64,000 bases of DNA from positions 124,001 to 188,000 of the forward strand of contig JAGQSC010000050.1 of the NCBI GenBank assembly GCA_020439745.1, written 5' to 3'. This stretch comes from Acidobacteriota bacterium. Its GTDB lineage: Bacteria > Acidobacteriota > Holophagae > Acanthopleuribacterales > Acanthopleuribacteraceae. The notes under the pieces were generated by a model. That model searched no databases. It saw only the letters and a list, made by a program, of their open reading frames with translations, and was not told the origin of the DNA. Made by a program: the position numbers and the translations under genes. The number at the start of each line of letters is the position of its first letter. Within the stretch, counting starts at the first letter, position 1. This document shows positions 27,417 through 41,695 of the stretch, one piece after another.

Positions 27417-28574
27417 ATGGTCAAAGTAATCAGCATTCTCGGTTCCACAGGATCCATCGGGCAATCCACCCTTAAGGTGGTTCGGGCCTTTCCCGATCGA
27501 TTCAAAGTGAAATTGCTGGCGGCGAACCGCCAGAGAGAGAAACTCCTTCAACAGGCCATGGAGTTTGAGCCTGACTGGGTGTACATCACGCGCGACTTCG
27601 ATGCAATCTGGCTGAAGAACCAAATTGGCTCCAAAAAGATCCGGGTCATCCAAGGACCTGACCAATTGGACCGGGTGGTGCGACGACTACGCGTGGACGT
27701 CACCGTGGCCGCCATAGTCGGGGCAGCAGGGTTACGCCCAGCAATGGCTGCCATGGAGGCTGGATCTAACCTTGCCTTAGCGAACAAGGAAGCCATGGTG
27801 GTTGCAGGTCGCCTGATGAATCAATTGGCTCAAGAAAAGGACGTCGCGATCATTCCTGTGGACTCAGAACACAACGCGATCCACCAATGCTTGCGTGGAG
27901 CGGACCACCATGAAGTGAAGCGCCTCATACTGACGGCGTCTGGCGGGCCATTTCGCGAATTTGAAGGTGATTTCAGTGCCATTACCCCACAGCAAGCGCT
28001 GAAACATCCCACATGGGACATGGGTAGAAAAATATCGATCGACTCAGCGACCTTAATGAACAAGGGTCTCGAGGTCATTGAGGCCCACTACCTATTCGGA
28101 TTCTCGCCCAATCAAATTGACATCGTCATCCATCCCCAATCGATCGTTCACTCCATGGTGGAATACATTGACAATTCATACATCTGTCAATTGGGGGCCA
28201 CCGACATGGTGCATCCCATCCAGTACGCATTGACGTACCCTGAGAGAACACGCAATCCCTTTCCTTCATTTGACATAACCAAAGGTGCTCACTTGGATTT
28301 CTACAAGGTCGACAGATCCAAGTTCCCCTGTTCCCAGTTAGCCTATGATGCCTTGCTCATGGCCGGCAATGCGCCCGCAGTTCTGAATGCCGCCAATGAA
28401 ATTGCCGTTGAAGCCTTCCTGGAAGAACGCATCAAGTTTACCGATATTCATCGCGTCAACGCCGCCAGCCTCGAAAAGATGGCACACCGCAAGGCACAGA
28501 CCCTCGATGAACTGATCGCATTGGATGAGGCGTCGAGACGCTACGCCTCAAACATGGTCCAAAAACTGGGATAA
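27417..28574 (+). CDS. dxr: 1-deoxy-D-xylulose 5-phosphate reductoisomerase
   Basis: 385 residues, typical. NADPH-binding ILGSTGSIGQSTL, 'ANKEAMVVAG', the metal and substrate motif 'PVDSEHNAIHQCL', 'TASGGPF', and the 'WDMGRKISIDSATLMNKGLE' motif are all intact. It converts DXP to 2-C-methylerythritol 4-phosphate, the committed step of the MEP pathway that supplies uppS. The Shine-Dalgarno is weak. The operon at 33308-36727 may offer an alternative DXP source. Confidence 0.97.
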   Translation: MVKVISILGSTGSIGQSTLKVVRAFPDRFKVKLLAANRQREKLLQQAMEFEPDWVYITRDFDAIWLKNQIGSKKIRVIQGPDQLDRVVRRLRVDVTVAAIVGAAGLRPAMAAMEAGSNLALANKEAMVVAGRLMNQLAQEKDVAIIPVDSEHNAIHQCLRGADHHEVKRLILTASGGPFREFEGDFSAITPQQALKHPTWDMGRKISIDSATLMNKGLEVIEAHYLFGFSPNQIDIVIHPQSIVHSMVEYIDNSYICQLGATDMVHPIQYALTYPERTRNPFPSFDITKGAHLDFYKVDRSKFPCSQLAYDALLMAGNAPAVLNAANEIAVEAFLEERIKFTDIHRVNAASLEKMAHRKAQTLDELIALDEASRRYASNMVQKLG

Positions 28575-28920: not shown

Positions 28921-31551
28921 ATGAAAACAGCTACCGATCAACTATTTCTGGAACGCGCATTACATGAGGCGAAACGCTATGGCGGTGACACCTGGGTATT
29001 TCTGCGCGAATGGGTCCAAAACAGTCGCGACGCAGGTGCCGGTGAAGTCGCGTTGCGCGCGGCTGTGGATATGGACTCTGAATGGGTGGAATGCATGGAT
29101 GACGGCGTGGGTATGTCCGACGCCGAGATGCGCCAGTATCTTTTCCGTCTGTATGCGTCCAGCAAAGAACAAGATGCCCAATCCATCGGTTTCTTTGGTG
29201 TTGGCTTCTGGTCGATTTTGTTGTTTGAGCCGAGCTGGATCTTAATTGAGAGTTGCAAGGGCGATCAGGCAACCGCCTATCGACTCGATTGTGAAACATT
29301 TGAAATAGAGTCCGTGGAGCCATCCCTGTCCTCTCACGGATTTCGTGTCAAGCTACATCGGCGCCGTCGCTTTGCCCGGAGTCGAGATCTGATTGACGAG
29401 CTCTCCGTCGCTTTGATTCGATTTGCGGGCCCTATTCGGCCCCTGCCACCCCAGCTTTCACTCAGATTGACAGTCAACGGATTCCCTGTCAATCAACCGC
29501 TTAAGCAACCTCAGTTTTTAGCCACCTCACTAGTTTTGGAAGGTGCCAGAGGCTATGTAGGTTTCGGAACACGGCCCTGGGTAAGGCTCTACAAAGGCGG
29601 CATCTTGTTGCGCGAGTTAACCGATCTCCACGAACTATTACCAAGGCGTGGGCGCAAGTATGCGCCCAAGGCTCCTGGCGTTTATGCACAAGTCGCAGTG
29701 GATGATGACAACCTGACCGTGTTAATGGACCGCAAGAGTGTGTTTGAAGACGATCACCTTGTTAGTGTTTGCGAAGCGTGCGAAGGCACATTGGTTCAAT
29801 TGGAAAAACAGCTCATTCGTTCCCTTTTCCCACTTAACTGGACCAATCGTAGGTTGCGTATTTGGGATCATCTCCCCAAGAAGATACTGGTCGTCAGCAT
29901 TGCATTGATGGTCATGCTCATGCTTATCGTTGCTCTTTGGCCTGCCAAGGCACCCTACCCCCCTCGACCAGAACTGCATTCCTCGAGCCTGGACACGGTT
30001 TTCGATCATTGGCAGCAATCCACCATTGACCAGGCTGGTCGTCCATCGTCATGGCAATATCAGTCGTCAGCCCCAACCGGTCGCCTTGTTGTGGGCCACC
30101 TTACAGATTTTGACCCGATGTTTGGACTTCAACCACCCGCAAAAAGAGCCATAGCGCCCTATCCCCAACTGCCCGGTGCGGCCGAACCGTTGAGACTTAC
30201 CTTAGGTGTTTCTGGTCAAAACGCGCCAACGCTTTTACCCGTTCCGTCAGGCATGGGTGTGGTTGCAGGCTCTGTAACCTTTGAGGGTCGGCCGGTGCAT
30301 GAACTTGGCGTGACCGCCGAAGGCATGCCACTTGTGGACCTGGAGCCCGTCAAGGCTGGAACACTCACCTATGAGATCACTCAGGCCACCGTGGAACCAA
30401 TCGTCGACAGTCGTTACCTCGAAACAACCGAGTTCCCCCCTCAAATAGCTGCGCAGTTGGACGAACTATCGAGACTTACCCCGGCTGAACGCGTTGAGGG
30501 TGTCAAACGGCTCACCTATTTGCACCTCGAATTTGCTCAAGACGAACAAAGTGCTCAACAATTTATCAGTTCTGACTTGGAATGGGTCAGCAAGACGTTG
30601 CAGATAGGCAAGGGTGATTGCGATGTCATGAACGGCTTAGCTGTACTTATGTTGCGTGCCGTAGATATCCCGGCATTTGTGACCGTAGGGTTGCCCGAGG
30701 ACGACGGCGATATGGGTGCACTGCATGCATGGACACAGTTTCACGACGGGACATGGCAGATGGTCGATTTTTCTCATGGTCGATCGCAATCTACAAACGG
30801 ACCATCCCCGACGCCAGCCTTGGGACAGCAATCGGCACCACTAACCTGGGCATGGCAAATACCCGTTGGCATCCTGATCATTGGAGGTGCGGTGTGGTTA
30901 TGGCGAAAGCGCTCTCGACGCAATTCGGAGCTCCCCGATCAAGCCGGAGAATTACTAGCCCAAATTATTGAGGACGAGTCATCGAAGGAATCTGAGCTTG
31001 GGAAACTGGCTCATTACGTCCCTGCGTTGCGAACGATTCATGGCGGTAAGCTCAGTCTACGCGAGATCGAGAAATTAGCCTTGAGGCACACACCCATCCT
31101 TGCAGACGCAAAAGACCCACGACTTTCGGTCCTCCACCCGTCGACAACCATCCTCGATCGAACCTGTCCATTTGTCGCCAAACTCATGCCCATTCTGCCC
31201 AGCATGCTAACGCTTGACCAGTTGGAGCGTTTTCAAGGTGCGGGTCCAATACCGGACGTACTCAAGCCTGTAGGCGACGCAATTCAAAGACATGACAAGA
31301 GCTCGAAACTGGTCGTGCTCGATCACATTCGATCCTCGACGGAGGCGCGAATCCGCTTCCTGGATGGTTGGCAACAATATCTCGCCATCCCAGCCCGAGC
31401 GGAATGGTTGCTTCGTGCCATCGACCATCATGCACATGAGCCCTTGAAAGCGACGATTTCAGCGGCCGTCGAACTCCTATCTCGTCAAGTGACTTATCGC
31501 GGTGCCATGGACGCCATCATGGCAGATGTCGTAAAGGAACAGCTGGCATGA
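28921..31551 (+). CDS. Hsp90-type GHKL ATPase fused through the membrane to a transglutaminase-like domain
   Basis: 876 residues; ATG preceded by AGAAGGGAA. Residues 1-110 carry a Bergerat ATP site very like Hsp90: N box REWVQNSRDA (about 29-38), G1 MDDGVGM, G2 IGFFGVGFWS. A second beta-rich domain runs to about 310, resembling the middle domain of GHKL proteins. A helix (about 320-341) follows a basic stretch. Residues 342-640 hold a transglutaminase-like fold with KGDCDVMNG (Cys near 567), LHAWTQF (His near 601) and MVDFSHG (Asp near 614). A second helix (about 643-662) is followed by WRKRSRR and a roughly 210-residue helical tail. Charge flanks predict the ATPase and tail in the cytoplasm and the transglutaminase outside. 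The stop overlaps the next gene (ATGA). I know no described protein with this order; function is unknown. Confidence 0.8.
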   Translation: MKTATDQLFLERALHEAKRYGGDTWVFLREWVQNSRDAGAGEVALRAAVDMDSEWVECMDDGVGMSDAEMRQYLFRLYASSKEQDAQSIGFFGVGFWSILLFEPSWILIESCKGDQATAYRLDCETFEIESVEPSLSSHGFRVKLHRRRRFARSRDLIDELSVALIRFAGPIRPLPPQLSLRLTVNGFPVNQPLKQPQFLATSLVLEGARGYVGFGTRPWVRLYKGGILLRELTDLHELLPRRGRKYAPKAPGVYAQVAVDDDNLTVLMDRKSVFEDDHLVSVCEACEGTLVQLEKQLIRSLFPLNWTNRRLRIWDHLPKKILVVSIALMVMLMLIVALWPAKAPYPPRPELHSSSLDTVFDHWQQSTIDQAGRPSSWQYQSSAPTGRLVVGHLTDFDPMFGLQPPAKRAIAPYPQLPGAAEPLRLTLGVSGQNAPTLLPVPSGMGVVAGSVTFEGRPVHELGVTAEGMPLVDLEPVKAGTLTYEITQATVEPIVDSRYLETTEFPPQIAAQLDELSRLTPAERVEGVKRLTYLHLEFAQDEQSAQQFISSDLEWVSKTLQIGKGDCDVMNGLAVLMLRAVDIPAFVTVGLPEDDGDMGALHAWTQFHDGTWQMVDFSHGRSQSTNGPSPTPALGQQSAPLTWAWQIPVGILIIGGAVWLWRKRSRRNSELPDQAGELLAQIIEDESSKESELGKLAHYVPALRTIHGGKLSLREIEKLALRHTPILADAKDPRLSVLHPSTTILDRTCPFVAKLMPILPSMLTLDQLERFQGAGPIPDVLKPVGDAIQRHDKSSKLVVLDHIRSSTEARIRFLDGWQQYLAIPARAEWLLRAIDHHAHEPLKATISAAVELLSRQVTYRGAMDAIMADVVKEQLA

Positions 31552-32812: not shown

Positions 32813-33256
32813 ATGCAAGTATTACTCAGAGAACCAGTTGCAAAGTTGGGTGTACGTGGCCAGGTGGTACGTGTTAAACCGGGGTATGCCCGAAATTTTC
32901 TGTTTCCCAAGCGGCTCGCCGTAGCGGTCACCGATGGTAACAAGCGTCAACTTGAGATTGAAAAACGCAATTACGAGCGGAAACTTCTGGCTGAAAAAGG
33001 CATTGCTGAAGAAGCCAAAGCAAAACTGGATGAGCTGAGCCTAACGATTGAAAAACGAAGTGGTGAGTCCGGTGTACTGTTTGGTTCTGTGACCACTCAA
33101 GAAGTAGCGGCACAGCTCCTGAACAACGGATATGAAATTGATCGTAGAAAGATCTCGTTGCCACACATCAAACAACTGGGTGAGTACGAGGTACACATCA
33201 AACTTCATACTGATGTGACCGCTGAAATAAAATTGACCGTGATTCCCCGAACCTAA
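32813..33256 (+). CDS. rplI: 50S ribosomal protein L9
   Basis: 147 residues, the standard length. The N-terminal MQVLLREPVAKLGVRGQVV and 'VKPGYARNFLFPKRLA' are the L9 signature; a long connecting helix (about 42-75) leads to the C-terminal domain with 'SGESGVLFGSVTTQEVA' and 'IKQLGEYEVHIKLH'. It binds 23S rRNA at the base of the L1 stalk. Usual neighbours rpsF and rpsR are absent; the gene has its own promoter and terminator. Confidence 0.98.
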   Translation: MQVLLREPVAKLGVRGQVVRVKPGYARNFLFPKRLAVAVTDGNKRQLEIEKRNYERKLLAEKGIAEEAKAKLDELSLTIEKRSGESGVLFGSVTTQEVAAQLLNNGYEIDRRKISLPHIKQLGEYEVHIKLHTDVTAEIKLTVIPRT

Positions 33257-33279: not shown

Positions 33280-33309
33280 AAGGCCCTCCTCTGGTGGGCC
33301 TTTTTTTTT
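33280..33309 (+). terminator. Rho-independent terminator of rplI
   Basis: The stem AAGGCCC/GGGCCTT (33280-33286 and 33296-33302) with a 9-base loop runs into nine T residues (33301-33309). The T-tract reaches the stop codon of the convergent cupin gene. Confidence 0.9.
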
Positions 33310-33769
33310 ATTCGCAGATCTCGCAAAATCCGGCGCCATCCACCTCGACAGGGCGATCACGGTCCGCATCCACAACACACAAAAAACCCAGGGGTTCAGG
33401 TCCGTGCGGATTGAGAAACTGGTGGGGGTCATCAGGGCCTACGTAAATGACGTCGCCCGGAGCCACGGGCAGGTAACGGCAACCAATGCGCACTTCGCCC
33501 TCACCTCGAGTGACGTAGACGACATGTTCATGACGATGATGTTCGTAGGTGGAGTAACCGCCCGGATCGATTTCAAAATAGCGCAGATGGAACTTCGTAT
33601 TTTCACCGCGCTTACCAACTAGTTCACGGCGGGTCATGCCTTGATAATTCTCTGAATCTTTCTTGTAGGGTTCAACGGGAATGTACTTCCAGTCCCCATT
33701 TGAAAGGCTTCTGAAGATCTTACTGGCAGTACCGAACATCTTCTCAGGGGCAATCATGTCCTTATCCAT
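33308..33769 (-). CDS. Cupin protein, possible methylthioxylulose-5-phosphate methylsulfurylase
   Basis: 153 residues, AAGGAG before the ATG. A single cupin barrel is seen: first motif 'PGGYSTYEHHRHEHVVYV' then RGEGEV, second motif 'PGDVIYVGPDDPHQFLN'. His and Glu are available as metal ligands. The C-terminus ends in FCEIC, a CxxC. The gene is the last of speD-speE-RLP-cupin. In Rhodospirillum rubrum a cupin next to an RLP converts 1-methylthioxylulose 5-phosphate to DXP and methanethiol. The same job is inferred here from context and cupin type. A generic cupin with another substrate is the alternative. The fold is certain, the reaction is not. Confidence 0.7.
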   Translation of the reverse strand: MDKDMIAPEKMFGTASKIFRSLSNGDWKYIPVEPYKKDSENYQGMTRRELVGKRGENTKFHLRYFEIDPGGYSTYEHHRHEHVVYVTRGEGEVRIGCRYLPVAPGDVIYVGPDDPHQFLNPHGPEPLGFLCVVDADRDRPVEVDGAGFCEICE

Positions 33770-33778
33770 CTGTGCTCC

Positions 33779-34879
33779 TTATGCGCCTCGTACGGCTCGT
33801 CGGAAAAGTGCGGCTGCACTGCGCAAATCAGTCGCCGCCCGCATGAGACCACCGCCAATCAAGTGTATCAGATCGTCCCCATATTCGCGGCTCATTTCGC
33901 CAATTCGGTCCAGAGTCATTCCTCCTGCAGGTACAGGGAACGAGGGTTTATAGGCGCCATAGGGCTCGCGTAGAGCGGCATTGATGGCATGACACGTATG
34001 GGTATCGAACACAAAACGACCACCCACATTTGGGTAAATCGATGCGTCCGCCCCTAATGACCGAAACAGTTGTCCCAAGACCACTCCGGCGGTCATACCG
34101 TGGTCGGGTGCGCTGAACATCCCTCCTGCTAATGAGGGATGTGCGAGCACTGCAAAGTCCCCTCGCCTTGCAATTTCTGCCATCATGTCCCATCCAACCA
34201 ACCAAGGACACACCATGACGATTTTGATTCCCTGGCTTAAGCAAAGTTCGTAGTCGCGTTCGAATCGAGTTATGGGTGGCATGAAGTTGGGTGCGTAAAG
34301 CGCGTGGCGATTCGTGGTGTCGTTGGCGCGAATGACTGCCTGCTGTACTTTCGGTACTCGTTCGGCGAACGGCGCATATCGCTGATTGGCAAGACCGTGA
34401 TCGTCTTTGATGATGTCCATGCCGCCACAAGCCAAATCGAAAGCCATGGTTGCAAACTCATCCGAAGTTCGTCCCATGGGTTTTAGGGCAGTACACACCA
34501 GCGCACCTTGATGTACTTCTGTTAACTTGCGCATCCCATCGATGCCAAAACTTGGACCCGGGAACACACCATCCAAACCCTCGATTTGGGTAATCAAGAA
34601 ACCCCGTTTCATGGAGATGTTGCCAAACAACAAGTTCAAGAGCTGAGCAGCTTCGCCTCCTGTCGTGTCCAGACTGTAGGAAATCACCGCATGAGCACGG
34701 TTCTCGTCAACATCATTGATTTGTTCAATTCGCCCTACGACCTGTGTCAAGAGTATATCTGGCACCTGATCCAGGGGCAGTTCGGCAGTTTGTTCTAATG
34801 CAATTCCTTGCGCAATTTGACGGGCGTCATCGCCAGGTCCCAGAGACAAACAGAAATGAACCTTGAGCCGGGTTTCCAT
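33779..34879 (-). CDS. RuBisCO-like protein (form IV), likely methylthioribulose-1-phosphate isomerase type
   Basis: 366 residues, ATG overlapping the speE stop (TAATG). The RuBisCO large-chain fold is shown by 'FPGPSFGIDGMRKL', 'TALKPMGRTSDEFA' and the active-site region GGMDIIKDDHGLANQ, where the carbamylated Lys and Asp are kept but the usual KxDE Glu is His. 'LAHPSLAGGMF' and C-terminal 'YPNVGGRFVFD' also fit. True CO2 fixation is unlikely because of the altered motif and short length. With a cupin downstream and polyamine genes upstream it best fits the RLP that isomerises 5-methylthioribulose 1-phosphate to methylthioxylulose 5-phosphate. An OiaX-like decarboxylase is an alternative. 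Confidence 0.8.
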   Translation of the reverse strand: METRLKVHFCLSLGPGDDARQIAQGIALEQTAELPLDQVPDILLTQVVGRIEQINDVDENRAHAVISYSLDTTGGEAAQLLNLLFGNISMKRGFLITQIEGLDGVFPGPSFGIDGMRKLTEVHQGALVCTALKPMGRTSDEFATMAFDLACGGMDIIKDDHGLANQRYAPFAERVPKVQQAVIRANDTTNRHALYAPNFMPPITRFERDYELCLSQGIKIVMVCPWLVGWDMMAEIARRGDFAVLAHPSLAGGMFSAPDHGMTAGVVLGQLFRSLGADASIYPNVGGRFVFDTHTCHAINAALREPYGAYKPSFPVPAGGMTLDRIGEMSREYGDDLIHLIGGGLMRAATDLRSAAALFRRAVRGA

Positions 34880-35757
34880 TAAGTCAATGGCCGCATAAAG
34901 GGAGCCAACAGTCCCTTCTGACGCCTGGGTAGTGCAAATGCGGCATGATGAATGCCTGGGTCATAGTATTTGGTCTCAAGCTGTAGCTGATCCCAGCGCT
35001 CTTGCTGGAAATCATTGAGTGGATGCGCATTCTTGGAAGCAAATGAAAAACTCCACAACCCGCCCGGATAAGTGACGTTGTGGTAGTTATAAAAATTGAC
35101 GGAGGGGAATACACCAGCAAGAATCTCGGCCAATGCCACTTGCCAATCGGGTTCATAATAAGGAGATTCGCCCTGCGAGACGACGATTCCGTTTTCATTC
35201 AGCACACGACGCACGTCCTCGTAAAACTCTGTCCCAAAGAGCGGAGCAGCAGGACCGATGGGGTCCGTGGAATCGACAATGATCACGTCGAAGCGTTGAT
35301 CGGTGTTCTTCACGAAAGCAACGCCATCCTCAATACGTACCGTGACTCTCGGGTCATCCAACGCACTAGCTGTACTGGGTAAGAATTCTTTGGACACCTC
35401 AACCACCAGTGCATCGATTTCCACCAATACGGCTTGCTCAACCGATGGATGGCGCACGACTTCGCGTATGGTGCCTCCATCACCGCCGCCAATCACCAAT
35501 ACTCGCTTGGGGTTGGGATGGCAGAATAACGGAACATGGGCAATCATTTCATGGTAGACGTGTTCGTCGCGTTCCGATAGCATCACCAGCCCATCGATGA
35601 ACATCATGCGACCATGGCCATAGGTGTCGACTATGTCCACCTGTTGGAAATCGCTCTTACCTGTGAACAGCGATTTCTTGACGCGAAATCGCTGTCCTAA
35701 TACGCCCTTATGAACTTCCTCAATCCAGCATTGTGTCAACGAGTCAGGCACTTGCAT
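34879..35757 (-). CDS. speE: Spermidine synthase
   Basis: 292 residues, GGAG before the ATG. An N-terminal beta strand domain precedes the aminopropyltransferase Rossmann core: 'VLVIGGGDGGTIREVVRHP' with VEID acidic loop, and the catalytic 'DVIIVDSTDPIGPAAPLF'. It transfers aminopropyl from decarboxylated SAM to putrescine and releases methylthioadenosine, which the RLP and cupin downstream would help to salvage. It sits 28 bp after speD. Confidence 0.95.
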   Translation of the reverse strand: MQVPDSLTQCWIEEVHKGVLGQRFRVKKSLFTGKSDFQQVDIVDTYGHGRMMFIDGLVMLSERDEHVYHEMIAHVPLFCHPNPKRVLVIGGGDGGTIREVVRHPSVEQAVLVEIDALVVEVSKEFLPSTASALDDPRVTVRIEDGVAFVKNTDQRFDVIIVDSTDPIGPAAPLFGTEFYEDVRRVLNENGIVVSQGESPYYEPDWQVALAEILAGVFPSVNFYNYHNVTYPGGLWSFSFASKNAHPLNDFQQERWDQLQLETKYYDPGIHHAAFALPRRQKGLLAPFMRPLT

Positions 35758-35785
35758 CGGAACTCCTGGTCATAGTATTGCTTGT

Positions 35786-36727
35786 TTATCGGCGTGAAAG
35801 TCGCAACCCACTTCGCACCGAGGCGAACTGCACGCGATAGCCGCACGATAGTGAATGCTCCACGCGATGACTGACAGATTCACATTGTCTCAACAGGCAG
35901 CTTCCATCCTCGCGTTCGAACAACATGACCAGACAGTGCTCAGGTCGAAATATATCCAATACCTTGTCAACGAGATTGGTAATGTCGCCTTCCAAATAGA
36001 AATTCGTTTCAAAGCTGGCATAGGAGCAATGGGGTTGAGGTGTCACGTGGACGGTGTAATAAAGATCGTTGCGAATGGCGTTCAGCGAGTATCCGTAAGG
36101 TTCAAAAACAAAACCGTCGGTTTCAAAGCCGTCGAACACCGAAGTCAGCCCCGATTTTTGGCCCACGGTGGCTGCATCAACATCATCCTGGGCATAAAAC
36201 ACACGCGAATCATCGGGCGACAGGCCATGCATCAATATTTCAAGTGTTGTGTCTCTTGGGTGGGGCTTGTAGGTCGACAGCATGTGGTAGAGACGAATGT
36301 GGTGGCCATCAGGATCACCAAAAAAGTATGCCTCTCCGGGCATTAACTTGTTCAACAGCGCAACGTCTGCTTCAAAATCTGTCGGTTGATCTTCGGGGAG
36401 TTGTTCATTCTTGCGTTCATAAATAAACAATTCTACATCTTGGAGTTTGATGAAGCTAAACACATGTTGCACCGCGCGAATCAGCGTCGTTTGTCCGCAC
36501 GTAATCATGATCACACGATGGTCATACACGAACAGCGAGGATTCTGATAACAGATAGGCATCGCAGTCGTCGTTTGCGATCACCGAAAGAACATGTGCGC
36601 CCGCCGATGCAACCACTTGTTTCCATTGGGCTCCAAATTGTCTTAAGGATGGATGACCTTGCCTGACAACCAATTCAAATTTCTTTTCCGAGCCCTCAAA
36701 AAACAATGTCTTAAGCACCCCCACCAA
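35786..36727 (-). CDS. speD: S-adenosylmethionine decarboxylase proenzyme, eukaryotic type
   Basis: 313 residues from a TTG at 36727; a GTG at 36718 with GGTGGGG in front is a good alternative. Motifs of the animal and plant enzyme are unmistakable: FFEGSEKK (human FFEGTEK, Glu8/Glu11), the self-cleavage site YLLSESSLFV (human YVLSESSMFV, pyruvoyl from Ser68), ITCGQTTL (Cys82), 'TLEILMHGLSP', GYSLNA (Ser229) and TVHVTPQPHCSYASFETN (His243). Typical bacterial SpeD is only about 120-260 residues and lacks these. It makes the aminopropyl donor for SpeE. First gene of a four-gene operon with a strong promoter. Confidence 0.95.
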   Translation of the reverse strand: MVGVLKTLFFEGSEKKFELVVRQGHPSLRQFGAQWKQVVASAGAHVLSVIANDDCDAYLLSESSLFVYDHRVIMITCGQTTLIRAVQHVFSFIKLQDVELFIYERKNEQLPEDQPTDFEADVALLNKLMPGEAYFFGDPDGHHIRLYHMLSTYKPHPRDTTLEILMHGLSPDDSRVFYAQDDVDAATVGQKSGLTSVFDGFETDGFVFEPYGYSLNAIRNDLYYTVHVTPQPHCSYASFETNFYLEGDITNLVDKVLDIFRPEHCLVMLFEREDGSCLLRQCESVSHRVEHSLSCGYRVQFASVRSGLRLSRR

Positions 36728-36756
36728 GGCTTAGCGCCCCTGCGCGACAGCGCACC

Positions 36757-36784
36757 ATTATAGAGGATTGGCGACCGATTTCAA
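36757..36784 (-). promoter_or_regulatory. Strong promoter of the speD-speE-RLP-cupin operon
   Basis: On the minus strand TTGAAA (36779-36784) and TATAAT (36757-36762) are separated by 16 bp, about 30 bp before the start codon. The predicted transcript begins within or near a small stem-loop, TGCGC-TGTC-GCGCA (36741-36754). Confidence 0.75.
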
Positions 36785-36803: not shown

Positions 36804-38204
36804 TCAATGCTCATGTGCCAGGAAAAGACTGGGAATGGCATTTGGTCCGTCGGAACTAGGCTTCAACATGACAGTACGGCTTGAAAACTCCTCTTTCTTG
36901 AGTTGGTCACCCAAGTTCCATTCTAATTTACGCACGCTTTCATTTCGAGATTGGGGAATGGAGATCAGTCGCACGTGATCGCCTGAGTTTTCCAGAACAA
37001 CCGCCACAAAAGAAGCATCGATCGCTGTCAAGGTCGTCACCGGGATGATATTGAAAGCTTTTGAAATCACCATGACAAAAGCCTTGTCCACGGTGGGGTC
37101 ATTGGAAGCAAGTAGCATTTGGATGCACTGGTAGAAAGGTCGGGGTTTAGGGCTGAGTTTCCAAGCCTCGGCCACATGATTTACGGCACGCAACAGGCGC
37201 GATACGGGCAGCGGAGATTCTTCCTGATTCGCCTTATGTCGCGGGGTCTGATAGGCCAGTACGGTGCGGTAATAAAGGGACCGATTGACAAATCTACTAT
37301 CGAGTAGCCAGCCGACCGCTCTATGCGGTAACTCAGCGCGAAACTCTTCCAGTCGTTCACTTTGACGAATAGATGGTGGCACCAATTGCTCACCGAGACA
37401 CTGGAACAAGGCAGCAAGACCAAAATCGATTTGTGCTTGTCGTCCCAGATTGAGGAAACGAGCAATGGCCAAAATCATGATCACGCCGTAAAAGACGCGC
37501 CCTTTTGTACGATCATCGACAGGTGAAGCCATCAACGCATGGATGATCTGAGGATACTGCTCATTGACGCGAATCAGATTCAGCAACACTCGATAGCCTA
37601 CGTTAATCCTCGGTGTTTCTTGATTCTGAATCTGACGATCCATGTCGTTGATGAACATGGCGAGTTTGGCAGCATTGCGAATGGCAAACCGGCGTGCATT
37701 TTCTTCGTCCCTTATGCCGGTCATCATGGTTTCCACATTGCTAAGTCTGATGGCCGTAATGTAAGGACTGTGACGCCTTCCCAAGCCCTGCATGATTGCG
37801 GCCTCACCGCGTGCCTTGTCGTCCAGAATTGATTCTCGCAAGGCAAACATGGTTTTGATCAGTGTTTTAGGGTCCCAACATTCCTCGTGGAAGATCAAAC
37901 CACCTATGTCGGCACCTGCAAAAAAATTCGACAAGAACGCGACACTTTCAATCAGACCGGAATCGATGAACACCCTACTGTCTTCAAGAAAGACCTGATG
38001 CGCATTCACGTGAATCGAACAGCCTCCCACCATTCGGTATGATTCCTTGATGTAACTGGCTAGCGTTTGGGCTAGGCGCACAAAAATCTGGTTATTGGGT
38101 TCAAACAGGTCCGCATTGCGAAACACCTGCTGTACATGAGAGAGAATCGAACGACCAAGCACCTGGATTCGTTCAGCATGAGGGTCTTTCTCTTGAGTAA
38201 TCAT
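36804..38204 (-). CDS. Degenerate HD-GYP-like protein
   Basis: 466 residues, soluble, start overlapping the kinase stop (ATGA). The C-terminal 250 residues follow the HD-GYP layout: 'FYGVIMILAIARFLNLGRQA', then 'LAALFQCLGEQLVPPSI' where a true enzyme has AALLHDIGK, then 'RLLRAVNHVAEAW' and RPFYQCIQML. The HD and GK residues are replaced by QC and GE and no HHE or GYP motif remains, so it should not hydrolyse c-di-GMP. The N-terminal 190 residues resemble the helical lead domain of such proteins. By context it is a partner of the PilZ-domain kinase. The family assignment is by motif spacing. Confidence 0.65.
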   Translation of the reverse strand: MITQEKDPHAERIQVLGRSILSHVQQVFRNADLFEPNNQIFVRLAQTLASYIKESYRMVGGCSIHVNAHQVFLEDSRVFIDSGLIESVAFLSNFFAGADIGGLIFHEECWDPKTLIKTMFALRESILDDKARGEAAIMQGLGRRHSPYITAIRLSNVETMMTGIRDEENARRFAIRNAAKLAMFINDMDRQIQNQETPRINVGYRVLLNLIRVNEQYPQIIHALMASPVDDRTKGRVFYGVIMILAIARFLNLGRQAQIDFGLAALFQCLGEQLVPPSIRQSERLEEFRAELPHRAVGWLLDSRFVNRSLYYRTVLAYQTPRHKANQEESPLPVSRLLRAVNHVAEAWKLSPKPRPFYQCIQMLLASNDPTVDKAFVMVISKAFNIIPVTTLTAIDASFVAVVLENSGDHVRLISIPQSRNESVRKLEWNLGDQLKKEEFSSRTVMLKPSSDGPNAIPSLFLAHEH

Positions 38205-41200
38205 CGCTGACCATCGATCATAGATTTGCAGTGGTTAATCAAATCTCGGTTTCCAAGTAGTTTCTTCGCCATCTTTTCCACGACTCTCTTGGCATCGGGT
38301 TGATTGGATTTCCAAAGTACCTCAGCTGCTAATTTTCGATCCTCCAGTTCAGATTTACCTTGGCCAAACGAGCTCTGATCATTGACCATATCTGTGAGGA
38401 ATTGCAGCCCGGTCTGATCCTTACCCGCCAACTGAATCACCATGGCGCGTTCGTCTGGCTGCAGCGAGACGAACGCTTCCAATTTCATGAACTCTCTCAA
38501 GATCTGCATCAACTTGGGCTTCGCTAACTGAGACAGGACACGCCAGGCATAGCGTCTTGATTCATCAAATCGGGGATTCTGATCGCGCCCAACCTTGACG
38601 ATCAAATCGAGAAAGTCGTGGTTCTGCATCCCTGCGATCATGCGAACCAAGCGAACACGAGTCTGAGGTCCTTTGTGTTTGAGCCAAGATTCAAAAACAT
38701 TGCGTGTGAGGCGATCGGGAATACGCGCAAATCCGTTCAGCATCACCATGGCCTTTTCATCACTCAATTCCATGCTCAGCCGAATCAAGGGCGTTAGGGT
38801 TGCACCACAAGCCATCACCGTTAGTTCGCTGAGAAATATCAAGCGCCATTCCTCGGTTTCCAACTGGAACCGATTGAAGAGGATTTTTACTGCAACACTT
38901 GGCAGCAAGTACTCGCAAATACCAAATATGGCATCTTTCAAATTGCGATCGACCGTAAAAAACTTATCGATCAGTTCGTTGAGAAACTGCTCATCAGAGA
39001 GACGTTCCTTTAACTTCAATAGGCGTTTGTGCATTTCCCGGGGATCAGATTCCGGCACTTCCTGGGACCAGGCATCCAGATAAGCAAACACCCGGGTCAC
39101 GGAGGCCAGGTCGTTTTCTGTCAAACATGAATAGACGATGTCTTCAATTACCGCAAAATGACGCTCAAAAATCTCGTTGTCTTTCTCGTCTCGAAGATGG
39201 CCCAACATAATGTCGATTGCCTTGTGCCTGACAACGGCATCAATTTCCTTCGTGAGGAAATGCTGTAACTTATGAATGGGCATGTTTTGATAGGCGCTCG
39301 CTAACTGGTCATGAAGCTCTAATGCTTGCGAAATCGGAACGCTATCGGCCATTGCCGTCTCCAGATTCCAAGCTGCACGGTAAAACCATTCGTCTTGAGT
39401 CTTCTTGATTCGAGCGAGGCTCTGTTCGTCCTCATAAAACGAATCCACATACTCAAAATCTATGAACTGGAAAACGCACTGAAACAGGATGGTTACACAA
39501 TCCTCTTCTTGATTCTTACGATCGTTGACGTAGCGAAAAAGCCTGATCAGGAATTGCTCTATTTCCTCGCGCGGCATGCCACGAAAGAACATTAGTTTTC
39601 GAATGCCATCGCGGTATAGGTTAAAGCAAAAGGCGTTTTCCTTTTGGTCTTCTTCCCAAATGGCTTCATGGATAAACAGCATGCGCATGGATTCCACATG
39701 GATGTCCAAGCGCTCATGTTTGCCAAAATATCGATCGAAACGGGAGTACAACTCTAATGTCGCTTGCTTTACCAAGTCGTGCGTTTCTGGATAAGTGCCG
39801 ATGGTGCGATACGTTTTTCCAAACTGGATAAACAGGTGACGCACCATATCGATCGATTCTTGATCGAAAGCTGTTTGGGCTTCTACCTCAAGATCACCGC
39901 GTTCCAGGAACAGTGCCACCTTTTCAAGTTCACTCACTAGTTCGCGTGCAGATTGAAAGCGCTCTTCTTTCTTCTTGGCAAGACACTTCATCACCATGTC
40001 GTTCAGGTTTTGAGAAATCTGGGCATCTTGCTCAATCAAGGGTGCTGGTTGTTTATGCAGATGCATGGCGATGGTTTCCACCCAGCGCTCGCCTCTGAAT
40101 GGAGGTTGACCCAACAACATCTCATAGGTCATGACGCCCAGCGAATAAAGGTCCGATCGTCCATCGATTCCTTCTGCAACAACTTGCTCAGGTGAAGCAT
40201 AAATGGGCGTACCCATAAAACCTCTCGTTTTGTCTTGCTCATCTCCTCCTTCAACCGTTGGGTCATCGGACTCCTGTCTTGCCAGGATCTTCGCGATACC
40301 AAAATCGGTCACCAAGACATGGCGATCCAATGTGACCATAATGTTTTCTGGCTTGATGTCTCTGTGAACCACGCCTTTGTCATGGGCATATGCCAGCGCC
40401 TTGCCGACAGCTGACACCCAGGTCAACGTGCGTTTTGCGTCCAACTTCCCTTCGTTCTTAAGGTATTGAGCGATTGAGTGGCCCTGAATGAACTGCATGG
40501 TGAAGTAAACAATGCGATCTTCGTAATTGGCCAACAACTCAAGCGGGAAATCCAATTTGTTCTCATACTCGCCTGGCGTCACTTCGCCCACTTCATAAAC
40601 CGTGGCAATATTGGGATGGTCGAACTGCGCAGCTATTTGCGCTTCAGCCACAAATCTTGAGCTCAATTTGGCATCGCGAGAGAATTTTGGTGACAGAACC
40701 TTCATCGCGACTTCGCGATTGAGCGCCAAATCGCGGACCAGAAATACGTCGGCAAAACCACCCTTCCCCAGTTTCCTCACAAACTTGTACTTCTGCTTGC
40801 TCAGCAAACCGAGGCCGCGCCCTGTCAAAGCAGGCGCAGATGTCATTACCTCGGTGCCGGTTGTACCTTCAGAGTTTCCGGTCTGCCTCATCGTAGCGTC
40901 ATGTTCTTGCTCGCGCCGTAACTGGTTAAAGAAGAGCTTGAATTGGTCATCGGCACGTACGACACGCAAGCCCAATCGCAAACCGATTCCGTCGGGGCGC
41001 TCAACGACCTGTCGTTCCCTTTCCACGGCGTCTACCTGAAAACGATCGCCATCATCCAGAAACACTAAAATGCGTACCTGATCAAATGCTGGCATTTCCA
41101 TGGGTACATAAACACCAATACCCCTTTGGCTCACATCGTGAACCTTGCCAACAAACGTGTTTTCGCCAATTCTCAATTTCGCATCCGCCGAATACAAGAA

Positions 41201-41695
41201 TCGCTTGTCGCTGCGGTGTTCCCGCTTGGTGGATTGCCCCTCTGCTGGGGTTTGATGGCCCAGCTGTTCCGTTGCGCCAGTCGTCCTACCCACGCTACGT
41301 ACCTGTGCGTCTGTTTTCTCTGGGGGCGACTCCATTGCTGCCGCTTGTTGTTTGACCAACCGAACCATGTGTTCAAAAAACGATGCCGGGTTTTGGTTGG
41401 CACCCGTAATTTGCAAGCCCAAGCGCGCAAATTGTTGCGGGCCAATGGTCACATCACTGCGGTTGGCAACGTGTACCTGAAAGGCATAGTCCCTAGGTGC
41501 CCGAATTGAAAACAGCAAGACCAACTGATCGACCACAGGAAGGTGCGGTGTCGTCAAGACACAAAAACCACGGGTACTGAAGTCCGCAGTCTTCGCTGCG
41601 AGCGTCCGGTCACCCACCTGGATTTCTAGGTCGTGCGTGAGATCGTAACGCTTGCGCGCCCTTTTCTCGGTAGCTCCGGCCGGTTCATATCCCAA
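38201..41695 (-). CDS. Ser/Thr protein kinase with two N-terminal PilZ domains and a long C-terminal repeat region
   Basis: 1164 residues, no obvious membrane segment. PilZ 1 (about 12-115) has RARKR and DFSTRG; PilZ 2 (about 160-265) has RSDKR and DVSQRG, the RxxxR and DxSxxG motifs that bind c-di-GMP. The kinase (about 300-600) is complete: glycine loop GKGGFADV, Lys in VAMKVL, HRDIKPEN near 444, DFGIAK, 'GTPIYASPEQV'. The C-terminal 560 residues are helical with HEAT-like periodicity. The probable role is a protein kinase controlled by c-di-GMP; substrates are unknown. It lies 86 bp after a U32 gene. Confidence 0.9.
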   Translation of the reverse strand: MGYEPAGATEKRARKRYDLTHDLEIQVGDRTLAAKTADFSTRGFCVLTTPHLPVVDQLVLLFSIRAPRDYAFQVHVANRSDVTIGPQQFARLGLQITGANQNPASFFEHMVRLVKQQAAAMESPPEKTDAQVRSVGRTTGATEQLGHQTPAEGQSTKREHRSDKRFLYSADAKLRIGENTFVGKVHDVSQRGIGVYVPMEMPAFDQVRILVFLDDGDRFQVDAVERERQVVERPDGIGLRLGLRVVRADDQFKLFFNQLRREQEHDATMRQTGNSEGTTGTEVMTSAPALTGRGLGLLSKQKYKFVRKLGKGGFADVFLVRDLALNREVAMKVLSPKFSRDAKLSSRFVAEAQIAAQFDHPNIATVYEVGEVTPGEYENKLDFPLELLANYEDRIVYFTMQFIQGHSIAQYLKNEGKLDAKRTLTWVSAVGKALAYAHDKGVVHRDIKPENIMVTLDRHVLVTDFGIAKILARQESDDPTVEGGDEQDKTRGFMGTPIYASPEQVVAEGIDGRSDLYSLGVMTYEMLLGQPPFRGERWVETIAMHLHKQPAPLIEQDAQISQNLNDMVMKCLAKKKEERFQSARELVSELEKVALFLERGDLEVEAQTAFDQESIDMVRHLFIQFGKTYRTIGTYPETHDLVKQATLELYSRFDRYFGKHERLDIHVESMRMLFIHEAIWEEDQKENAFCFNLYRDGIRKLMFFRGMPREEIEQFLIRLFRYVNDRKNQEEDCVTILFQCVFQFIDFEYVDSFYEDEQSLARIKKTQDEWFYRAAWNLETAMADSVPISQALELHDQLASAYQNMPIHKLQHFLTKEIDAVVRHKAIDIMLGHLRDEKDNEIFERHFAVIEDIVYSCLTENDLASVTRVFAYLDAWSQEVPESDPREMHKRLLKLKERLSDEQFLNELIDKFFTVDRNLKDAIFGICEYLLPSVAVKILFNRFQLETEEWRLIFLSELTVMACGATLTPLIRLSMELSDEKAMVMLNGFARIPDRLTRNVFESWLKHKGPQTRVRLVRMIAGMQNHDFLDLIVKVGRDQNPRFDESRRYAWRVLSQLAKPKLMQILREFMKLEAFVSLQPDERAMVIQLAGKDQTGLQFLTDMVNDQSSFGQGKSELEDRKLAAEVLWKSNQPDAKRVVEKMAKKLLGNRDLINHCKSMIDGQR

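Follow-up and report, generated by a model that had tools for sequence, protein, structure and literature searches.

A RuBisCO-like protein and a cupin in a spermidine operon of an Acidobacteriota bacterium: a predicted methylthioadenosine-isoprenoid shunt

What becomes of the methylthioadenosine (MTA) that is released in spermidine synthesis? In 64,000 nucleotides from an Acidobacteriota bacterium of the family Acanthopleuribacteraceae (contig JAGQSC010000050.1, positions 124,001 to 188,000; this whole stretch is the window), the spermidine genes speD and speE are followed by genes for a RuBisCO-like protein (RLP) and a cupin, by which this organism apparently runs an oxygen-independent shunt in place of the usual oxygen-dependent salvage. 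From sequence comparisons, and with a probability of roughly 0.83, we assign RLP and cupin as the two committed enzymes of the MTA-isoprenoid shunt. The pathway as such is already known, having been described for Rhodospirillum rubrum and Rhodopseudomonas palustris in two papers (PMC4958253, PMC5893883), and its arrangement in a spermidine operon appears to be what is new. The operon comprises:

35786-36727, minus strand: speD, class 2 (eukaryote-type) S-adenosylmethionine decarboxylase, 313 aa from TTG 36727; PF01536, 247 bits, 4.8e-73
34879-35757, minus strand: speE, spermidine synthase, 292 aa; TIGR00417, 337 bits (cut-off 249.55)
33779-34879, minus strand: RLP, predicted 5-methylthioribulose-1-phosphate isomerase, 366 aa; PF00016, 76 bits
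33308-33769, minus strand: cupin, predicted 1-methylthioxylulose-5-phosphate methylsulfurylase, 153 aa; PF07883, 49 bits
36757-36784, minus strand: promoter-like site TTGAAA-16-TATAAT, 5' of speD, 11 of 12 matches

All four open reading frames (ORFs) lie on the minus strand and the family scans agree on what they encode, which bears out the identities given in a preliminary description made from the letters of this DNA. It had also noted that the genes overlap or abut: speD and speE are 28 nt apart, the RLP start codon overlaps the speE stop codon by 1 nt (TAATG), and 9 nt separate RLP from cupin. Gene order, gene families, conservation and the presence or absence of partner genes can be read off the assemblies directly. 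The full order recurs in two of the six other family genomes (G001 to G006) that we compared with the window genome, namely in G001, of the same genus, with gaps of 42, -1 and 14 nt, and in G002, of another genus, with gaps of 3, 13 and 0 nt.

Every enzymatic step, as well as co-transcription and the purpose of the coupling, we infer from homology. SpeD would decarboxylate S-adenosylmethionine, and SpeE would transfer the aminopropyl group to putrescine, releasing MTA, for which polyamine synthesis is the main source according to a review (PMC6302742). MtnP and MtnA, encoded elsewhere, would turn MTA into 5-methylthioribulose 1-phosphate, which the RLP would isomerize to 1-methylthioxylulose 5-phosphate; from this the cupin, with glutathione, would form 1-deoxyxylulose 5-phosphate (DXP) and a methylthio-glutathione adduct, the source of methanethiol. 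DXP from this step would enter the methylerythritol phosphate (MEP) pathway beside Dxs. In this way the RLP-cupin pair would replace the MtnB-MtnC-MtnD branch, which depends on oxygen, and, with transcription starting at the speD promoter, MTA disposal would rise and fall with spermidine synthesis. The shunt of R. rubrum (RLP Rru_A1998, cupin Rru_A2000) is alike in its RLP and cupin homologues and in that the genome also encodes MtnP, MtnA, Dxr and a putative glutathione synthetase of the GshB type; here, by contrast, the pair stands in a speD-speE operon, the host belongs to the Acidobacteriota, and there is no clear O-acetylhomoserine sulfhydrylase.

The RuBisCO fold of the window RLP is not in doubt. 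Its structure model (pLDDT 94.7) finds its top match in 3qfw, an RLP of R. palustris (Z 45.6, rmsd 1.9 over 343 residues), which is also the closest solved relative by sequence (E 9.5e-69); identity is 37% to 3qfw, 27% to the MtnW of Geobacillus kaustophilus and 25% to true RuBisCO. In R. palustris, too, RLP1 (RPA2169) and a cupin (RPA2170) are neighbours, and RLP1 shows isomerase activity with a kcat of 1.3 per second (PMC5893883); the differences are the RLP identity of about 37% and the additional presence there of Ald2 and a second, aerobic route.

Where does this RLP belong among its relatives? A scan of named genomes gave 480 RLP relatives, of which 80 are listed; statements about named loci refer to these 80. 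A cupin homologue accompanies the RLP in 28 of them, 22 times as a separate downstream gene, five times fused in the same ORF and once upstream. In both a 104-row tree and a more careful 57-row tree, in which 3qfw stands in for the R. rubrum RLP, a large clade of RLPs without cupin partner is set off (support 95 and 99/94, respectively), and the window RLP falls outside it together with 3qfw and the cupin-linked RLPs. The only cupin-flanked RLP inside that clade in the 104-row tree is L129, whose cupin lies upstream and is distant. The window RLP forms one clade with those of G001 and L065, the latter being the same record as G002 (100/98, 57-row tree).

Two other identities can be weighed at this point. 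The RLP could be 2,3-diketo-5-methylthiopentyl-1-phosphate enolase (MtnW) of the classical aerobic pathway, and its best NCBIfam match is indeed to that family. Yet the score is 173 bits against a cut-off of 409 (117 against 513.6 on TIGR03332), the window RLP groups with 3qfw, apart from three YkrW-type structures that are united in a clade of their own (100/100, 57-row tree), and neither mtnB nor the gene for acireductone dioxygenase (ARD) is there to act before and after it; we regard this identity as exceedingly unlikely. An apionate-pathway decarboxylase of the OiaX type, which the preliminary description had singled out for checking, is not indicated either, with 81 bits on the OiaX model against a cut-off of 700. 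The window RLP thus differs from YkrW/MtnW and from OiaX, as befits the DeepYkr type that the shunt calls for.

The cupin resembles solved structures 3ibm (9e-31), 3kgz (2e-23) and 3jzv (1.6e-20). The last of these is Rru_A2000, named as the MTXu-5P sulfurylase of the shunt in PMC4958253; the window cupin is 37% identical to it and has four histidines and C131 in common with it. Residues H78, H80, H82, H116, C131, R137 and D138 are each kept in 38 of 38 aligned cupins, 3jzv included (39 rows less L129). The likeness to the R. rubrum pair that had been proposed from the letters is thus found in the cupin directly, the RLP being nearest to R. palustris 3qfw. The cupins of the window-type operons form one clade (98/92), in agreement with the RLP tree, and are sister to the cupins of fused proteins (96/92). 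Such fusions, single ORFs of 533-539 aa with the domains in the order of the operon genes, occur at no fewer than five loci (five of the 80 listed):

L073:5968-7581, L077:5974-7593, L088:1647-3248 and L090:5974-7593: fused RLP-cupin, Candidatus Scalindua / Brocadiaceae (anammox)
L117:1105-2706: fused RLP-cupin, metagenome-assembled genome of Chitinispirillaceae (Fibrobacterota)

The two domains and their order are those of the window genes, joined in one polypeptide, and a match to speE was found at none of the five loci. The fusions provide independent support that RLP and cupin act together, and offer a direct way to ask whether the intermediate passes between the enzymes. They also bear on the range of the shunt, which a 2018 survey lists for Proteobacteria, Firmicutes and Deinococcus (PMC5893883): the likely range would widen to Acidobacteriota and, judged by RLP-cupin pairs and fusions, also to Gemmatimonadota, Balneolota, anammox Planctomycetota and Fibrobacterota.

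The remaining genes of the pathway were sought in the assembly of the window genome (5.1 Mb, 97% complete). Both mtnA (430 bits) and mtnP (TIGR01694, 324 bits) are present on contigs other than that of the window; that the window lacks them had been stated in the preliminary description. The gene mtnA occurs in all seven family genomes, and mtnP was named in the three with an RLP. The window genome has three PF01048 genes, for MtnP, a purine nucleoside phosphorylase and a futalosine hydrolase, none of which scores over the cut-off as MTA nucleosidase. There is an ordinary dxs (819 bits) and a gshB-type ATP-grasp gene (184 bits), the GshB-type domain being found in 7/7 family genomes. ARD (PF03079) was not found in the window genome, and the seven family genomes divide in two: none of the three RLP-bearing genomes has it, against all four of those without RLP. 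Among 49 further RLP genomes, no ARD scored over the cut-off, with three weak partial matches. The only PF00596 gene of the window genome encodes a 664-aa bifunctional aldolase/dehydrogenase, and the genome therefore has no mtnB; the same gene is the only candidate there for the class II aldolase (Ald2) of the dihydroxyacetone phosphate (DHAP) shunt. The class II aldolase of G001 reaches 41 bits against 137 on the mtnB model TIGR03328 and is not MtnB, and no mtnB was found in G002. In contrast, the four relatives without RLP (G003 to G006), which would have the MtnP/MtnA entry steps in common with the window genome, all carry an mtnB-like gene beside ARD, as read from the ORFs and not from mtnB-model scores. 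A complete classical salvage pathway, for which the preliminary description had wanted the genome examined, is thus lacking: the entry genes are present, and mtnB and ARD are not. Taken together, this would be a swap between two salvage routes within one family, and it makes a clean example, at the genome level, of one operon that holds both the genes from which MTA arises and those that would dispose of it without oxygen. In titles and abstracts of the open-access literature, to which the search was confined, we found no description of the spermidine-operon arrangement, the family-level swap or the RLP-cupin fusion.

Conservation argues in the same direction. When the window genome is set against G001, changes in each of the four operon genes fall preferentially on the third codon position (positions 1/2/3: RLP 0.38/0.24/0.71, cupin 0.19/0.11/0.62), and RLP and cupin are therefore both kept as proteins. 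In G003, speE is convergent with rplI and neither RLP nor cupin lies between them, at the place where the window and G001 hold the pair; in G005 and G006, rplI follows speE on the same strand, and it was not found in the stretches taken from G004 or G002. Could the adjacency be an accident of gene order without functional meaning? The full operon is known from three genomes of one family among those examined: it was not seen at the other 79 listed named loci, where contig ends often truncate the region, nor, in a set of 396 genomes of the phylum, in the 17 that have an RLP besides the window genome and G001 (19 in all). However, the order is kept in two genera with tight spacing, at RLP identities down to 42%, and in a second group of Acidobacteriota speD-speE is divergent from an RLP gene (L173, L181), so that we consider an accident very unlikely.

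At the head of the operon, the best PDB match of SpeD is 1msv (3e-39), which we take to be the human enzyme, with the processing site SES aligned; its TIGR00535 score of 173 bits is under the cut-off of 233, and, judged by the homologues, the in-frame TTG at 36706 is a better start than TTG 36727. Class 2 speD adjoins speE in all seven family genomes. The near-consensus promoter reported upstream of speD is there, at 36784-36757. A scan of the operon region at a looser threshold gave six promoter-like sites where 5.0 are expected by chance. The form TTGA-16/17-TATAAT occurs within 250 nt upstream of speD in 5/7 family genomes, compared with 0-2 of 2000 dinucleotide shuffles per genome, for a pattern that was picked after the sequences had been read.

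Several points weigh against our assignment. Three of the five genomes that have the promoter form carry no RLP; the form therefore belongs to speD and not to the shunt, RLP and cupin lying downstream of it. The replacement pattern of three genomes against four is coherent, yet comes from related genomes and not from an independent sample, so that no probability is attached to it; absence of the classical branch rests on mtnB and ARD, mtnC having had no search of its own. O-acetylhomoserine sulfhydrylase (TIGR01326) stays under the cut-off in all seven family genomes, and the two best pyridoxal phosphate (PLP) enzymes of the window genome resemble relatives of cystathionine gamma-synthase/lyase. 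As to the RLP, the R. rubrum protein is represented in the trees by 3qfw, which we take to be RLP1 since the other R. palustris entry, 2qyg, is titled rlp2; OiaX was compared by model score. The cupin-side RLPs are weakly held as one clade (91/46, 57-row tree), so that it is safe to say only that the no-cupin clade does not include the window RLP. Finally, no active-site column fully separates cupin-side from no-cupin RLPs (38 and 51 rows; L129 was omitted, and the no-cupin set also excludes L005-L007 and seven rows that the tree places on the cupin side), and active-site residues were accordingly dropped as a marker of cupin-linked RLPs.

These common columns would also suit an RLP that acts on another sugar phosphate, with the cupin serving that pathway, as would the transketolase-half genes that adjoin some no-cupin RLPs. 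This we consider unlikely: the window RLP is outside the no-cupin clade (99/94), its gene adjoins that of the MTA-producing enzyme, and mtnP and mtnA are present with mtnB and ARD missing.

If the pair does carry out the shunt, what is it for? The preliminary description had proposed that polyamine synthesis is hard-wired to isoprenoid supply, pointing to dxr, the gene for the next enzyme, in the window. The gene is there, on the opposite strand and some 5 kb from where the operon ends, as part of an ordinary uppS-cdsA-dxr cluster:

27417-28574, plus strand: dxr, DXP reductoisomerase, outside the operon; TIGR00243, 442 bits
25766-27356: uppS and cdsA, clustered with dxr

The placement of predicted shunt genes with spermidine genes in one operon stands, as do the gene identities. 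Isoprenoid supply, though, is only one possible purpose and the claim goes too far, because dxs is present, dxr sits in a housekeeping cluster, and mtnP and mtnA are elsewhere; MTA disposal and sulphur salvage account for the linkage equally well. It is fairly probable that the same enzymes serve to remove toxic MTA and to save sulphur, DXP being an unimportant by-product, a variant compatible with our assignment. These same features of the genome favour it, and the R. palustris authors give the shunt a housekeeping role in handling MTA (PMC5893883). On the other side, the mtnB-ARD route of the four relatives would suffice for removal alone, and the sulphur-salvage half is less convincing with no clear MetY-type enzyme found. 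Shunt genes have also been surveyed as a possible substitute for Dxs (PMC10663253). A bolder extension of the shunt assignment, which we offer tentatively and hold to be doubtful, is that RLP-cupin is a transferable module that replaces the oxygen-dependent half of salvage at speD-speE, and that the enzymes, which the anammox fusions show can be a single protein, might form a complex or channel, yield one DXP per spermidine and couple polyamines to isoprenoids via one transcript.

The surroundings of the operon add some detail. Its downstream edge is marked by a convergent neighbour:

32813-33256, plus strand: rplI, ribosomal protein L9; TIGR00158

A terminator scan found no intrinsic terminator directly after the cupin gene on its own strand; a GC-rich hairpin with T-run at about 33280-33309 looks, by eye, like a plus-strand terminator of rplI. 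Riboswitch control was rejected, as Rfam models run at gathering thresholds matched a single tRNA in the whole window and had no match at the operon. Directly upstream of speD and on its strand (36804-41695, minus) stand two genes that are both kept in G001, an orphan of 466 aa and one in which PilZ is combined with a Ser/Thr kinase; read-through from them into speD is therefore possible. Further away, 28921-31551 on the plus strand encodes a large protein in which a GHKL-type ATPase domain is joined to a transglutaminase-like domain, with a homologue, by eye, at the same position in G001. An apparently split dxs in G002 was set aside; the half-genes lie at contig ends, most likely an assembly break.

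Other RLP contexts deserve mention. In G091 and in G365, the latter with the very RLP sequence of named locus L079, the RLP gene and speD-speE are divergently oriented and no cupin was seen close by, which is a second kind of RLP-speDE link; L173:4079-7114 and L181:7907-10935, from another Acidobacteriota family, have this divergent orientation of RLP and class 2 speD-speE, with no cupin nearby. An mtnA-like gene lies upstream of RLPs without cupin partner at L069, L095, L102, L106, L132 and L135. At L170, L171, L172 and L174, in other Acidobacteriota, RLPs of the no-cupin clade stand beside transketolase-half genes, L174 also having a regulator-like gene (by eye); these are perhaps sugar pathways with an RLP of unassigned role.

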